In this document: one piece after another, positions 3 through 17,160 of the stretch | Layout: every line of letters begins with the position of its first letter | Numbering within the stretch: the first letter of the stretch is position 1 | Assembly: GCA_025056565.1 (NCBI GenBank) | Contig: JANWWA010000015.1 | Coordinates: 8,948 to 72,947, forward strand | DNA: 64,000 nucleotides | Origin: Chloroherpetonaceae bacterium | Lineage (GTDB): Bacteria; Bacteroidota; Chlorobiia; Chlorobiales; Thermochlorobacteraceae | Reading direction: 5' to 3' | The notes under the pieces: generated by a model | Told to the model about the DNA's origin: nothing | Database searches by the model: none | Seen by the model: the letters and a program-made list of their open reading frames with translations, nothing else | Translations under genes and position numbers: made by a program

Positions 3-2006
3 GAAAAGGAAGCTGAAGCGGCTCTGCAAGAAGCTTATGGCTTTTTGCAAAGCATCTTTTATGGTCTGGACTTTGACATTTTCGTTGTTGATGTGCTTCC
101 TGACGGTGAGTTTCGCATTGCGGGCTTAAATCCAGCGCACGAGCGAAGCACGGGCATACCTAATAGCCAGCTAATTGGTAAAACCCTGAGCGAACTGAAC
201 GACATTTTGCCACCAGAAGCGATTGCAACGATACGTCGACGCTACCAGAAATGTATTGAAGCTGGCACGACACAGACATTTGAATCGCGCGTCCTCTTAA
301 CTGGCAAAGAAAACGCTGCCGATTGGATTGTGCGGATTACGCCGCTGAAAGATGCGGCAGGCAAAGTTTATCGGCTCATTGGCACAGCACTCGACATCTC
401 TGAGCGCAAGCGTGCTGAGAAGGCGCTGCGCGAAATGCAAGCGATGCTCGCCGACACAGAGGAAATTGCGCGCATCGGTAGCTGGCAGTATGATGTAACG
501 ACGGGCAAAAGCGCTTGGTCGGCAGAAGTGTTTCGCATCTATGAACGCAATTTTTCTGCTGGCGCGCCGTCGCTAGAAGAATTCTTTCAGTATCTGCCGC
601 CAGAAGAAGCCGAGCGACTTATCCCTATTTTTGAACGCGCTCTGCGGGAAGGGGTTGGCTATGAATGCGTGATGCGTATTCGCACGGAGAGCGGCAAGGA
701 AAAATGGGTGAAAGTCATTGGCAAACCGCTCAAAGACCATCAAGGCAAAGTTATCAAGGTCTATGGCTCGGTGATGGACATTACGGCGCAAAAAGAGGCT
801 GAATTGGAAAAGGAAAAGTATTACGCACAGCTTTTGCATGCGCAGAAGATGGAATCGCTGGGTGTTTTAGCAAGTGGTGTGGCGCATGAGTTCAACAATA
901 TTCTGCAAAGCATTTTGGGCTATGCCACGATGCTGCGTAAGCGCTTCCCAGAAGGCACACCTGAGCGCGAAAAAGTCACGCGCATTGAAGCCAGCGTACA
1001 CCGCGCTGCCGCAATCGTGAAAAAAATGCTCGGCTTTGCACGTCAGAGCAAAACCGATGTCAAACCTGTCCAACTTCGTGACTGTATTTTCGATGTGCTA
1101 CAAATTCTTGAACCCACGCTGGATAGGCGCATTAAAGTTTCCATTGATGCCGCAGGCGATGTTCCGATGATTGAAGGCGACAAAGGTCAGTTGGAGCAAG
1201 TCTTGCTGAATCTTGCGGTCAATGCTCGCGATGCCATTCAGCCACTTTTAGGCAGCGCTCGCTCCCAAGGCGAGATAGTTTTTCAGTTGCGTTACGAGAC
1301 AATCCCCCCTCACCTGCAAGCCGCATATGGGCTACGGAGCCAAGAGATGTTTGTGCACCTTGCCGTGCAAGACAACGGCACGGGCATTCCTGAGGAAATT
1401 CGCACCAAAATTTTCGACCCTTTCTTTACGACCAAAGAGACAGGCAAAGGCACGGGGCTTGGGCTTTCAATGGTCTATGGCATTGTTCAGACGCATCACG
1501 GCTCTATTCTCTTGGAAAGCGAGGTGGGCAAAGGCACCACATTCCATCTTTTCTTCCCGCCTATGCGACCAGTTCCCCATGCTGGAAGTCAATCCCCCCT
1601 TACGACGCATTCTACTCCCAGTGTCGGTGCTGGCACCGTGCTTCTGATTGAAGATGAAACGGATATTCGCGAGCTGGTCTTAGATGCGTTGCGCGAGCAA
1701 GGTTATGTAGTCTATACAGCCTCAAATGGTTTGGAGGGCGTAGCACTCTTTGAAGCAGGCAAAGGCGCCTTTGACGCTGTAGTGCTTGATTTGAATATGC
1801 CTGAGATGAATGGCTTAGATGTGCTCCGGCGCATTAGGCAGCTTCGCTCTCCTGCAGCCGTCATTTTGACCACGGGATACTTAGAGCCGGCGTATTCAGA
1901 GGAACTTGAGGGCGCAGGTCTTTTCCGCATTTTGCCAAAGCCTTACGCCCTTTCAGATTTGCTTAGTGCTGTTGCTGAAGCCATTGCACACGGGCGCACG
2001 CGCTAA
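3..2006 (+). CDS. Hybrid PAS sensor histidine kinase with C-terminal receiver (5' end outside window)
   Basis: The reading frame is open to the left edge, and the first visible residues ([15 protein letters not shown]) look like the coiled linker that follows a PAS/PAC domain, so the gene is cut by the window; the first possible in-window start, TTG at 45, is probably internal. Visible order: PAS plus PAC (ending [12 protein letters not shown]), second PAS (ending [14 protein letters not shown]), HisKA with the phospho-accepting His in [11 protein letters not shown], HATPase with N box NLAVNARDA and G boxes DNGTGIPEE and GKGTGLGLS, then a receiver domain with acidic pair EDE and phospho-Asp in [12 protein letters not shown]. 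No membrane segment is visible in this part. The receiver at the end makes it a hybrid kinase that may phosphorylate itself or relay to a separate Hpt protein. It converges on the aminotransferase gene with a 15-base gap. Signal unknown. Confidence 0.9.
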
Positions 2007-3393: not shown

Positions 3394-3990
3394 TTACGAA
3401 TTAAAAATTTGATTGACGGCAATTTGAAAATCAGGAATGATTGGCGCTGCTGAGCAGATGTCGTCGCCTATGCAAATTTTCGCCTCTTTGAGCGACGCAT
3501 AAACTCGCACGAGTTGATGCTTCGGAAAAATTTCCCAGACCATCTGAACGCCGCTCGTGAAATAATCCTTCAATTTCGTTTGAATCTCATCAACCGTGTT
3601 GGTCGGCGAAATGATTTCAACGATGAATTTTGGAATCGTCTCTTCGCCTTGTTCGGAGCGCAAGAGCTCTTCTTTCGTGAAATACGCCAAATCAGGAATG
3701 CGCAGTTTGCCAACAGGCTCAAAAAACGTCTCCGCTTCGGGCAACAGCTCGCCGCCGTTTTGATACGCTTTTGTTTGCGAAAAACGCCTTAATAGGCGCG
3801 CCACAATCATTCGTTCTTTGATTTTCATTCCTGTTTTGGCTCTAAGGATTCCGTTGTCCCACTCGTATTTGAAGCCATCTTCGGCTGTCCAGTTTCGGAA
3901 ATCTGCCAGTGACATTTTCTTGCCGTCGTAGAGCGGTTTTGGTTCTCGACGCTTTTTAGTTCGCAGTTTCGTTGCCGTCAGCGTTGCCAT
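3394..3990 (-). CDS. Uma2-family (DUF820) putative endonuclease, copy C
   Basis: A 198-residue Uma2/DUF820 protein, a family with a PD-(D/E)XK nuclease-like fold that is often multi-copy in cyanobacteria, Chloroflexi and Chlorobi; its biological role is not established. Visible family motifs: EDGFKYEWDNG near residue 37, RIPDLAYFTKEE (the PD of the nuclease core), FIVEIISPTN (the E of ExK) and KLKDYFTSGVQMVWEI (conserved Lys and the YF..GV..VW signature). Third gene of a tandem trio, separated from copy B by two bases (stop TAA, then CG, then ATG). Its first 27 residues and last 25 are nearly identical to those of copy B while the middle differs, pointing to recent duplication or gene conversion. 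No membrane or signal segment. Confidence 0.85.
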   Translation of the reverse strand: MATLTATKLRTKKRREPKPLYDGKKMSLADFRNWTAEDGFKYEWDNGILRAKTGMKIKERMIVARLLRRFSQTKAYQNGGELLPEAETFFEPVGKLRIPDLAYFTKEELLRSEQGEETIPKFIVEIISPTNTVDEIQTKLKDYFTSGVQMVWEIFPKHQLVRVYASLKEAKICIGDDICSAAPIIPDFQIAVNQIFNS

Positions 3991-4065
3991 CGTTAATTGC
4001 CAAAAATTTGATTAACCGAAATTTGGAAATCTGGGATTGCAGGCGCGGCAGAACAAATGTCATCG
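3942..4065. repeat. 124-bp perfect direct repeat, copy 1 (Uma2 gene junction)
   Basis: This block is repeated without a mismatch 599 bases away at 4541-4664. It spans the start of one Uma2 gene, the two-base intergenic gap and the last codons of the preceding Uma2 gene, so both gene junctions of the trio carry the same sequence. The bases just outside the block differ (3941 g against 4540 t; 4066 t against 4665 c), so the identity ends sharply on both sides. Confidence 0.95.
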
Positions 4066-4589
4066 TCAGTGCAAATCTTGACCTCTTTTGGAGAGGTGAA
4101 CACGCTCACTTTTTTGCGCATTGGCAAAATCAGCCACACGCATTGAACTCCTGCCGAAAAATACTCGTCTAATTTCTCATCATAATAACTCATTCGGTCG
4201 CTCTCGGAAACCAGTTCAATGACGAATATCGGCACGGGCTGCTCACCTTCTTTGGCGCGCTCAATTTGCTCCTTCGTAAATACCGCAAGGTCAGGCACCC
4301 GATACTTCCCCTCAGATATCGGACAAACTGACTCCGTCAGCAACGCGCTTCCCTGTTTAAAAGCAGACGTATTCAGAAACGCGCGCTGCAAATTATTAAC
4401 CAAATAGAATTCTGCCGCTTTAATCATTTTTTCTCTTGCTTCCAGAAAGCCGTTGTTCCACTCATATTTGAAGCCGTCTTCGGCTTTGAAATCCAAAAAT
4501 TTTTCCAACGACATTTTCTTGCCGTCGTAAAGCGGCTTTTGTTCTCGACGCTTTTTAGTTCGCAGTTTCGTTGCCGTCAGCGTTGCCAT
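3993..4589 (-). CDS. Uma2-family (DUF820) putative endonuclease, copy B
   Basis: A 198-residue Uma2/DUF820 protein. Motifs: EDGFKYEWNNGFLEAREKM, RVPDLAVFTKEQ (PD), FVIELVSESDRM (catalytic Glu of the nuclease core) and KLDEYFSAGVQCVWLI. The N-terminus (MATLTATKLRTKKRRE) is shared with copy C, the central part resembles copy A (same FLDFKAEDGFKYEWNNGFL block), and the C-terminus ICSAAPAIPDFQISVNQIF is the same as copy A. It is therefore a mosaic of its neighbours. Start ATG at 4589 is two bases after the stop of copy A, so translation is probably coupled. No SD is visible other than the coupled stop. Role unknown; sequence alone supports only the family assignment. Confidence 0.85.
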   Translation of the reverse strand: MATLTATKLRTKKRREQKPLYDGKKMSLEKFLDFKAEDGFKYEWNNGFLEAREKMIKAAEFYLVNNLQRAFLNTSAFKQGSALLTESVCPISEGKYRVPDLAVFTKEQIERAKEGEQPVPIFVIELVSESDRMSYYDEKLDEYFSAGVQCVWLILPMRKKVSVFTSPKEVKICTDDDICSAAPAIPDFQISVNQIFGN

Positions 4590-4664
4590 CGTTAATTGCC
4601 AAAAATTTGATTAACCGAAATTTGGAAATCTGGGATTGCAGGCGCGGCAGAACAAATGTCATCG
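4541..4664. repeat. 124-bp perfect direct repeat, copy 2 (Uma2 gene junction)
   Basis: Second copy of the perfect repeat at 3942-4065 (offset 599). It covers the start of copy B, the two-base gap and the C-terminal codons of copy A. Such repeats would allow RecA-dependent loss or gain of one Uma2 gene. Confidence 0.95.
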
Positions 4665-5176
4665 CCCATGCAAATTTTCACTTCCTTCAAACCCGTATAG
4701 ACATAAACTTTTTGCTTCATTGGCACGATAAGCCACACCACCTTCACGCCCGAAAGAAAATACTCCTCTAACTTGTTTTCATAGTAGCAGAGTTGGTCGT
4801 TTTCAGAAACAAGCTCAATGATAAATGGTGGCACAGGGAACTTGCCCTCTCGCGCTTCGGTGATTTGGTCTTTCGTAAAAAAAGAAATATCAGGAATGCG
4901 ATATTTTTCTTCTGAAATTGGACAAACGGTTTCTGTTATCATCGCACCGCCTCGTTTTTTAAACTCAGTTTGCTCGAAAGCCGCTCGCAAATTTTCAACG
5001 ATGTAAATCTCGGACAGTTTAATCATTTTTTCCCTTGCTTCCAGAAAGCCGTTGTTCCACTCGTATTTGAAGCCGTCTTCGGCTTTGAAGTCCAAAAATT
5101 CTTCAAGCGACATTTTCTTGCCGTGATATTTCGGCTTCAGCGGGCGTTTGCGAATGGTGCGTTCAAGCGTTGCCAT
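4592..5176 (-). CDS. Uma2-family (DUF820) putative endonuclease, copy A (first of trio)
   Basis: A 194-residue Uma2/DUF820 protein and the first gene of the tandem trio. Motifs: EDGFKYEWNNGFLEAREKM, RIPDISFFTKDQ (PD), PFIIELVSENDQL (core Glu), KLEEYFLSGVKVVWLI. Two ATGs lie in tandem at 5179 and 5176. I chose 5176 because it sits about 4-6 bases from a purine run (AAAGGGGG) that looks like the ribosome binding site and because it gives MATLE, matching the MATLT start of the sisters. The N-terminal 20 residues differ from those of copies B and C, which share theirs exactly, so the duplication that made B and C post-dates their split from A. Likely first gene of an operon ending with the aminotransferase. 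Confidence 0.85.
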   Translation of the reverse strand: MATLERTIRKRPLKPKYHGKKMSLEEFLDFKAEDGFKYEWNNGFLEAREKMIKLSEIYIVENLRAAFEQTEFKKRGGAMITETVCPISEEKYRIPDISFFTKDQITEAREGKFPVPPFIIELVSENDQLCYYENKLEEYFLSGVKVVWLIVPMKQKVYVYTGLKEVKICMGDDICSAAPAIPDFQISVNQIFGN

Positions 5177-5434
5177 CATTCCCCCTTTCTTCTTATTTTA
5201 GCTCAATCTCTCAAACAAGCAACGAACTATCGACAGCGCGCCATGCAGCCTCAAGCGCTATCACTTCTGCTGCATTCCACCTAACACGCCTGAATATCTG
5301 CAAAACTTGGCTTATTTCCGTAACTTCTTGATGGGCTGCTACAAAGCAACGCCTTGTGTCAGCACAGCCACTTGGTTACACAGACTTGCTTGCTGGCTTT
5401 ACGAGAGACAGGGAACGGGAAAGCGAAGAGAGGT

Positions 5435-5511
5435 TGGCGGAGCTGACGGGGCTCGAACCCGCGACCTCCTGCGTGACAGGCAGGCGCTCTAACCGACTGA
5501 GCTACAGCTCC
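5435..5511 (-). tRNA. tRNA-Asp (GTC)
   Basis: Read on the minus strand the gene folds as a complete cloverleaf: acceptor GGAGCTG/CAGCTCC, D arm GCTC...GAGC, anticodon stem CCTGC/GCAGG with loop CTGTCAC (anticodon GTC), T arm GCGGG-TTCGAGC-CCCGT with one G-T pair. Discriminator base is G, as expected for Asp, and the 3' CCA is encoded (5437-5435). The only other tRNA in the window does not encode CCA. Confidence 0.97.
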
Positions 5512-16299: not shown

Positions 16300-17160
16300 T
16301 TAGTTACGGAAAGTCCACTGGGCAATGTAGGCCGAAGGGATAGGATTTTCGCCTGCGTTAGCTAATGTGAGCGCACCGCCCAAAAAGAGACTGTTACCAT
16401 AGACAGCGAGGGCATCGACAGAACTATTGACTCCATTCCCCGTAGGGGTGGTCAGAGCACTCCAACTTGCACCGTTCCAGCGAGCAATGAAACTAGCTGG
16501 CACACTCCCTGCTTGCCCGAAAAAGCCTCCCACATATAGCTCACCCTGATAGACCGCAAGCGCATACACCGCCGTCAAAGTTGCATCATCACTACTGACT
16601 CCATTTTGGTCGCCTGTGCCCAGTGCATTCCATTTCGTACCGTTCCAGCGAGCGATGCGGTTGGCTTGAATGCTGCCCGCTTGCGTGAAGCTACCCCCTA
16701 CATACAGCTCATTGTTATACACTGCCAAAGCATTGACTCGACTATTGACGCCGTTTTGGTTGCCTGCGCCAAGTGTATTCCATTTTGTGCCGTTCCAACG
16801 AGCAATGTAGTTAGCCGCTACACCCCCTGCCTGCGTAAATTCACCCCCTACATAGAGCTCACCCTGATAGACTGCAAGGGCAGAAACTGGTCTGTTTGCT
16901 CCATTCGCCGCACCAAAGCTTGTCGCCCAACTGCCTGTACCGCCTTGCATGGTTGTCTCCTTTGGCGTTACAATCGGTCTGCCTTTTGCAGTCAAATGCA
17001 GCACAAAGCCATCAAGGCTATACACACCATCTCTATCCAAGCATAGCGTGCCATCAGGATTCAAAATCTCCATCACCGACAGCTGCTCGGTGCTTTGGGC
17101 AATAAGAGGCTTTGCGCCTAAAAGAATCAGCGTTGTCAGTAGCAAGGAAACGTATCTCAT
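16300..17160 (-). CDS. Secreted protein with tandem propeller-like repeats
   Basis: A 286-residue exported protein; MRYVSLLLTTLILLGAKPLIAQ is a signal peptide, which is why ATG 17160 is preferred to the upstream start at 17205. After a short N-terminal region four imperfect repeats of about 45-60 residues follow, each with the pattern VxALAVYxxELYVGGxFTQA then IARWNGTxWxxLG and a GN(Q)NGVxS turn. This resembles Kelch/beta-propeller-like repeats of surface proteins; four blades would be a small or partial propeller. I see no type IX secretion C-terminal domain at the end (IPSAYIAQWTFRN), so export by the general route is the simpler guess. Function unknown; neighbours do not help. Confidence 0.75.
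   Translation of the reverse strand: MRYVSLLLTTLILLGAKPLIAQSTEQLSVMEILNPDGTLCLDRDGVYSLDGFVLHLTAKGRPIVTPKETTMQGGTGSWATSFGAANGANRPVSALAVYQGELYVGGEFTQAGGVAANYIARWNGTKWNTLGAGNQNGVNSRVNALAVYNNELYVGGSFTQAGSIQANRIARWNGTKWNALGTGDQNGVSSDDATLTAVYALAVYQGELYVGGFFGQAGSVPASFIARWNGASWSALTTPTGNGVNSSVDALAVYGNSLFLGGALTLANAGENPIPSAYIAQWTFRN

Follow-up and report, generated by a model that had tools for sequence, protein, structure and literature searches.

Three tandem Uma2 genes in the 64,000-nucleotide stretch of Chloroherpetonaceae DNA analysed here (the window) very probably represent one state of a recombining array of PD-(D/E)XK-family genes, in which recombination homogenises gene ends, the junctions between genes and parts of the shared scaffold. 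The genes, A (3394..3990), B (3993..4589) and C (4592..5179, or possibly starting at 5176), lie on the minus strand with gaps of 2 bp. The head-to-tail arrangement with two-base gaps given in the preliminary description was confirmed by the open reading frames (198, 198 and 195 aa for A, B and C) and by matches to Uma2/PF05685 of 73.8, 80.6 and 71.3 bits, respectively, all of which exceed the curated Pfam cut-off of 27 bits. Transcription runs from C (5179-4592) through B (4589-3993) and A (3990-3394) into a class III aminotransferase gene (PF00202; 2022..3369, minus strand). Upstream of the array lies a tRNA-Asp (gtc) detected by ARAGORN (5435..5511, minus strand), and upstream of the tRNA is a gene for a DNA/RNA non-specific endonuclease (PF01223; 5631-7085). 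The focal assembly is a draft of 75 contigs.

The array locus is found upstream of an orthologous aminotransferase gene (82-91% amino acid identity) in four related genomes, the focal one included, and this gene stands at the 3′ end of the array in 4/4. The number of Uma2 copies at the locus differs between relatives, in line with the copy-number change that had been anticipated: three in the focal genome, two in SKYG21, two in Ca. Thermochlorobacter aerophilum OS and at least five in GBChlB, where two contigs end within the array and the count is a lower bound. Farther upstream, GBChlB and SKYG21 carry a transketolase-half gene and the focal genome the tRNA-Asp. No functional tie between the array and the aminotransferase was found; in the relatives the array sits in a transketolase/aminotransferase neighbourhood. 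Three side observations concern the adjoining DNA. Around the variable block described below, one Uma2 gene of T. aerophilum OS (L060 8404-9003) contains stop codons and a frameshift, which reflect either decay or assembly error, and the OS array adjoins another tandem-duplicated family (L060 9697-10939; 98% identity over 300 nt) without a Pfam match. In SKYG21, a gene adjoining the array (L057 9708-10337) matches Uma2 only weakly (Pfam E=0.004, below the cut-off) and has the same leader, MATLEKSARKR, as its Uma2 neighbour (32 nt, 94%), such that one leader precedes two very different cores.

The gene cores fall into types that cross genera. Type alpha comprises A and its orthologues OS_1 (L060) and GB42_1 (L058); beta comprises SK_1 and GB42_2; gamma comprises B, its orthologue SK_2 (L057) and their relatives GB42_3 and GB23_1; and C is probably of type delta together with OS_2 (L060), an assignment made by eye from the OS_2 reading frames. 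Within the core segment (alignment columns 104-180), A is nearest to OS_1 (82% nucleotide identity) and GB42_1 (74%), and B is 95% identical to SK_2. Read from the aminotransferase outwards, the order of types is compatible with a single ancestral array of which each genome would have retained a subset.

The proteins of the trio are predicted nucleases of the PD-(D/E)XK fold. An AlphaFold2 model of B (pLDDT 89.8) was matched by Foldseek to the solved DUF820 proteins 3OT2 (E=1.5e-10) and 1WDJ (E=1e-9), and the PD-EXX-K active-site residues D100, E125 and K139, plus E43, are present in the trio, in agreement with the motif described for the family (PMC551604). All four putative catalytic residues are invariant in an alignment of 16 relatives. 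The earlier proposal that selection favours variation in the nuclease core is supported in that one part of the protein stays variable, but it does not extend to these residues.

When near-identical tandem Uma2 pairs are compared, their differences cluster in one block of ~26-33 codons that covers helix alphaA and the strands before the PD motif. In the trio this variable block (alignment columns 70-95, minus strand) occupies 3739..3813 in A, where it spans the second part of helix alphaA, a loop and the strand before the PD motif, 4335..4409 in B (residues 61-85; H58-72, E82-85) and 4934..5008 in C. In the model of B, the block region takes in the greater part of helix alphaA (58-72), then a short helix (75-78) and the strands 82-85 and 89-92, which directly precede P99-D100. 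Variation centres on helix alphaA and these two strands, and weaker variable stretches follow the PD motif. In PD-(D/E)XK enzymes, helix and strand elements of this kind can contribute to dimerisation or substrate contacts.

The limits of the block used for testing (HMM columns 40-72, equal to residues 61-93 of B) were set from two pairs. Two genes of the GBChlB array are identical in nucleotide sequence nearly throughout, save for ~25 consecutive codons and the last few; their differing codons number 22/33 in the block versus 3/142 elsewhere. The other pair belongs to a second Uma2 trio in the focal genome, on contig C9 (G000:C9, L061 5921-7810), for which tblastn detected no similarity to A, B or C at 1e-5. 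Here, genes 1 and 2 agree at 98-99% outside the variable block, the leader at the N-terminus and the final codons, and 27/31 codons differ in the block versus 3/138 elsewhere. The block was then tested on further arrays from a survey of Bacteroidota and Thermomicrobiota that included closed genomes: contig C15 of T. aerophilum OS, G107 and G111 (closed genomes), G102, G223 and, from the other phylum, the complete record of Thermomicrobium roseum. The best pair of each tested array showed an excess of differences in the block (one-sided Fisher p 2e-3 to 8e-16), with 27/31 codons versus 17/139 elsewhere in the OS C15 pair and 22/31 versus 14/140 in T. roseum. Genes 2 and 3 of the L158 array showed no block excess (p=0.16). 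The three-gene arrays L156 and L158 also carry two extra variable stretches, at HMM columns ~76-90 and 140-158. A cyanobacterial pair (L233) displays a weaker and broader version of the pattern, and a pair from a Pseudanabaena plasmid (L206; 18% amino acid identity) is too diverged for block comparison. A search of the sampled genes for a donor of the GBChlB blocks yielded none; the nearest blocks in other species, those of B and SK_2, gave a modest signal (0.56 versus 0.47 nucleotide identity).

Two closed genomes allowed orthologous blocks to be followed across species. Between G107 and G111, which belong to the same genus and are assembled in 1-2 contigs, block codons differ at 12/61 positions in orthologues versus 38/60 in paralogues (p=1e-6), while in the scaffold the two comparisons do not differ significantly (60/279 versus 48/278). 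These counts indicate that G107 and G111 keep orthologous blocks on otherwise homogenised genes. In their second array (L156/L158) the flanks are collinear (92% identity over 3.6 kb), but positions 1 and 2 have swapped their block types.

The retention of blocks bears on a proposal for the whole family. Feder and Bujnicki (2005; PMC551604), who predicted its fold and active site and noted tandem duplications, suggested selfish, recombinogenic spread: Uma2 nucleases would cut their siblings and repair would copy the intact parts, so that an array multiplies and becomes homogenised. The multiplication of the family within genomes, its predicted recombinogenic nature and its tandem duplications fit this proposal, as do the 15 Uma2 copies of the focal genome, which are spread over several clusters. 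However, homing should overwrite the recipient's block, whereas blocks stay different while both of their flanks are overwritten; moreover, blocks are retained across species and the copies remain at one conserved locus. We therefore regard homing as an unlikely origin of the pattern.

Recombination within the focal array is seen at its junctions. Copy 1 of the junction repeat (3942..4065, minus strand) joins the 3′ end of B through the 2-bp gap to the 5′ end of A, and copy 2 (4541..4664, minus strand) likewise joins C to B; each consists of the upstream gene's last 73 bp, the gap and the downstream gene's first 49 bp. The copies agree at 124/124 bp, as first described, and the repeat is maximal, not being extendable either way. 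Outside the junctions, third codon positions agree at 43% (A/B) and 39% (B/C), and the probability that all third positions of the repeat became identical by independent divergence is ~1e-16. Because the match includes all third positions and the bases between the genes, against ~40% agreement of third positions elsewhere, the repeat reflects an event at the level of DNA and not protein constraint. Over an aligned stretch of 147 bp the focal junctions are 97% identical, rising to 100% over the central 124, and the repeat is the focal genome's latest homogenisation tract.

The relationships among the genes change along their length: most N- and C-termini group by genome, while the cores group by type across genomes. 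The N-terminus of A is nearest to that of B (95%), every other gene being at most 57% identical to A in this segment, and the C-terminus of B is nearest to that of C (94%). There are two exceptions, in that the N-terminus of C resembles SK_2 (78%) and not A or B, and the C-terminus of SK_1 is 90% identical to those of B and C and 80% to that of SK_2. In a permutation test, the runs of identical sites were significant for A/B and B/C (p=0.0005; Bonferroni 0.022) and for several other pairs. In GBChlB, 3/4 junctions are 99-100% identical, with longest exact runs of 149-171 bp, and the fourth is 72-73% identical. Between genomes, junctions are 50-69% alike, and the GBChlB repeats are 58-60% like those of the focal genome. 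Since the GBChlB junctions are perfect but of different sequence, the junction repeat recurs independently in another genus. On these alignments, homogenisation occurs within genomes by DNA-level recombination, that is, gene conversion and/or unequal crossing over, and the core types are much older than the homogenised parts.

The preliminary description, which attributed the homogenised ends to gene conversion or homologous recombination, is supported in this respect by the junction and segment comparisons; uniform divergence along the genes, which was looked for in a close relative, was not seen. Its view of B as a mosaic of A and C applies to the ends of the gene, but not to the core, which is an old type in its own right with an orthologue in SKYG21. 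Similarly, the gene centres are diverged, as the third positions attest, but not uniformly: B and C are again ~90% identical in nucleotides over codons ~22-60. After the variable block their cores are 62% identical. As this divergence extends past the block, the clean one-block pattern belongs to the sister arrays and not to the focal trio.

A single recent event with nothing ongoing, either an unequal crossover or a tandem duplication of a 599-bp unit, would explain why the two repeat copies are spaced by exactly 599 bp, and B starts exactly as A and ends exactly as C, as unequal crossover between adjacent genes would give. Such an event should nevertheless have left the whole 599 bp matching, whereas 124 bp do; in other genera, the core of A and that of B correspond to different orthologues; and perfect junctions with other sequence recur in GBChlB. 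Taken together, we judge a single duplication improbable.

Synonymous sites separate recombination from a further alternative, in which selection on the protein holds the ends, weak constraint frees the block and recombination is unnecessary. Among ten tandem pairs, synonymous changes at unchanged residues amounted to 75/174 (43%) in the block versus 127/1240 (10%) outside (p=5e-24), a count in which L155/L157 and L156/L158 are orthologous arrays that should each count once. The same measure in 12 orthologue pairs, chosen by identity and not at random, gave 123/302 versus 389/1350, a mild excess (synonymous ratio median ~1.5); the block is thus somewhat faster in orthologues too, as protein selection would have it. 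However, tandem pairs concentrate synonymous change in the block, with a block/backbone synonymous ratio exceeding that of orthologue pairs (p=1e-4; difference between the two classes, Mann-Whitney p=5e-4). A local rise in synonymous divergence is impossible by relaxed constraint alone, and block and scaffold therefore differ in age. Protein selection is further opposed by the identity of synonymous sites and gap in the junction repeat and by the fact that the ends differ between genomes, and we consider it very unlikely. Thus, the aligned sequences argue that ends and junctions are shaped by concerted evolution through within-array recombination, and neither by a single recent duplication nor by protein selection.

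It is also scarcely probable that the array is a product of short-read assembly, in which a stretch shared between copies led the assembler to join or multiply them. The draft state of the focal assembly would permit this, and in related drafts (G001, G003, G004, G006) contig ends fall within Uma2 genes in 11 cases, versus 2.2 expected by a rough estimate. Against this, orthologues of the A and B cores lie in order in other genomes, G107/G111 and the complete T. roseum record show the same pattern, and collapsed repeats cannot yield block differences. Site-specific exchange of cassettes at the junctions, integron-like or otherwise, can be dismissed almost entirely: a core between direct repeats looks cassette-like, but there is no attC-like fold (single-strand folding of the junctions is not unusual, z=+0.8 and +0.7), no tyrosine integrase family was found among the neighbouring genes scanned, and the junction sequence is not conserved between genomes, so that there is no fixed recombinase site.

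How a recombining array could keep its blocks distinct may be outlined as follows. RecA-type homologous recombination between near-identical scaffold stretches would do the copying, and selection would remove recombinants that make two blocks alike. If a segment stays different while its surroundings are overwritten, the function seen by selection lies there. The block would set the recognition target or the partner copy, giving one scaffold with several specificities per array, and could act through either target choice or partner insulation. We tentatively propose that it is a recognition or partner-choice surface. Slightly more doubtful is the broader possibility that Uma2 arrays constitute a widespread diversity-generating system, in which a homogenised nuclease scaffold carries a swappable target or partner segment of 26-33 residues and conflict with mobile elements or phages maintains the diversity. 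Uma2 is a very large bacterial family whose role is unsettled after 20 years, and the proposed recombination may explain both the frequent tandem arrangement of its genes and the breaks of draft assemblies within them.

In type I restriction systems, HsdS undergoes shuffling of target-recognition domains, combining a constant scaffold with an exchangeable recognition segment. With their exchange of blocks between positions and a putative recognition role of the block, the Uma2 arrays would resemble this in outline only, a comparison of working and not of membership, and differ in that neither inverted copies nor a recombinase was found in them. No methyltransferase partner has been described for the family (PMC551604). 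Under concerted evolution, paralogues exceed orthologues in likeness within converted parts (e.g. PMC2720389). Concerted tandem families with locally retained diversity share with the arrays this excess and the old variation elsewhere, but here the proteins are solitary predicted nucleases and the boundary of the retained segment falls at the same place in several arrays.

The trio shares with the Uma2/DUF820/COG4636 family (structures 1WDJ and 3OT2) its domain, fold, active-site pattern, multi-copy genomes and tandem clusters. One paper described 'cassettes of paralogous genes' in this family and raised the possibility of a solo toxin (PMC2701414), one survey counted COG4636 as one of the restriction endonucleases that Tn7-like transposons carry (PMC8649781), and Microcystis has a Uma2 gene within a type III CRISPR locus (PMC11855584). 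In the open-access papers searched, we came across no account of Uma2 junctions being homogenised, of a variable block that recurs or of blocks being exchanged, and nothing relevant on Uma2 with gene conversion or hypervariability. PADLOC models of the candidate family PDC-S03 match A, B, C and the C9 copy (E down to 1e-20); however, PDC-S03 is a candidate label only and the immediate neighbours of the focal array are metabolic or housekeeping genes. A role in defence is thus a lead only. In PHROGs, the Uma2 proteins match a family of unknown function only. Elsewhere in the window, positions 16591-16861 contain a tandem repeat with a period of 150 bp (1.8 copies, 76% matches), which probably encodes repeated protein modules.
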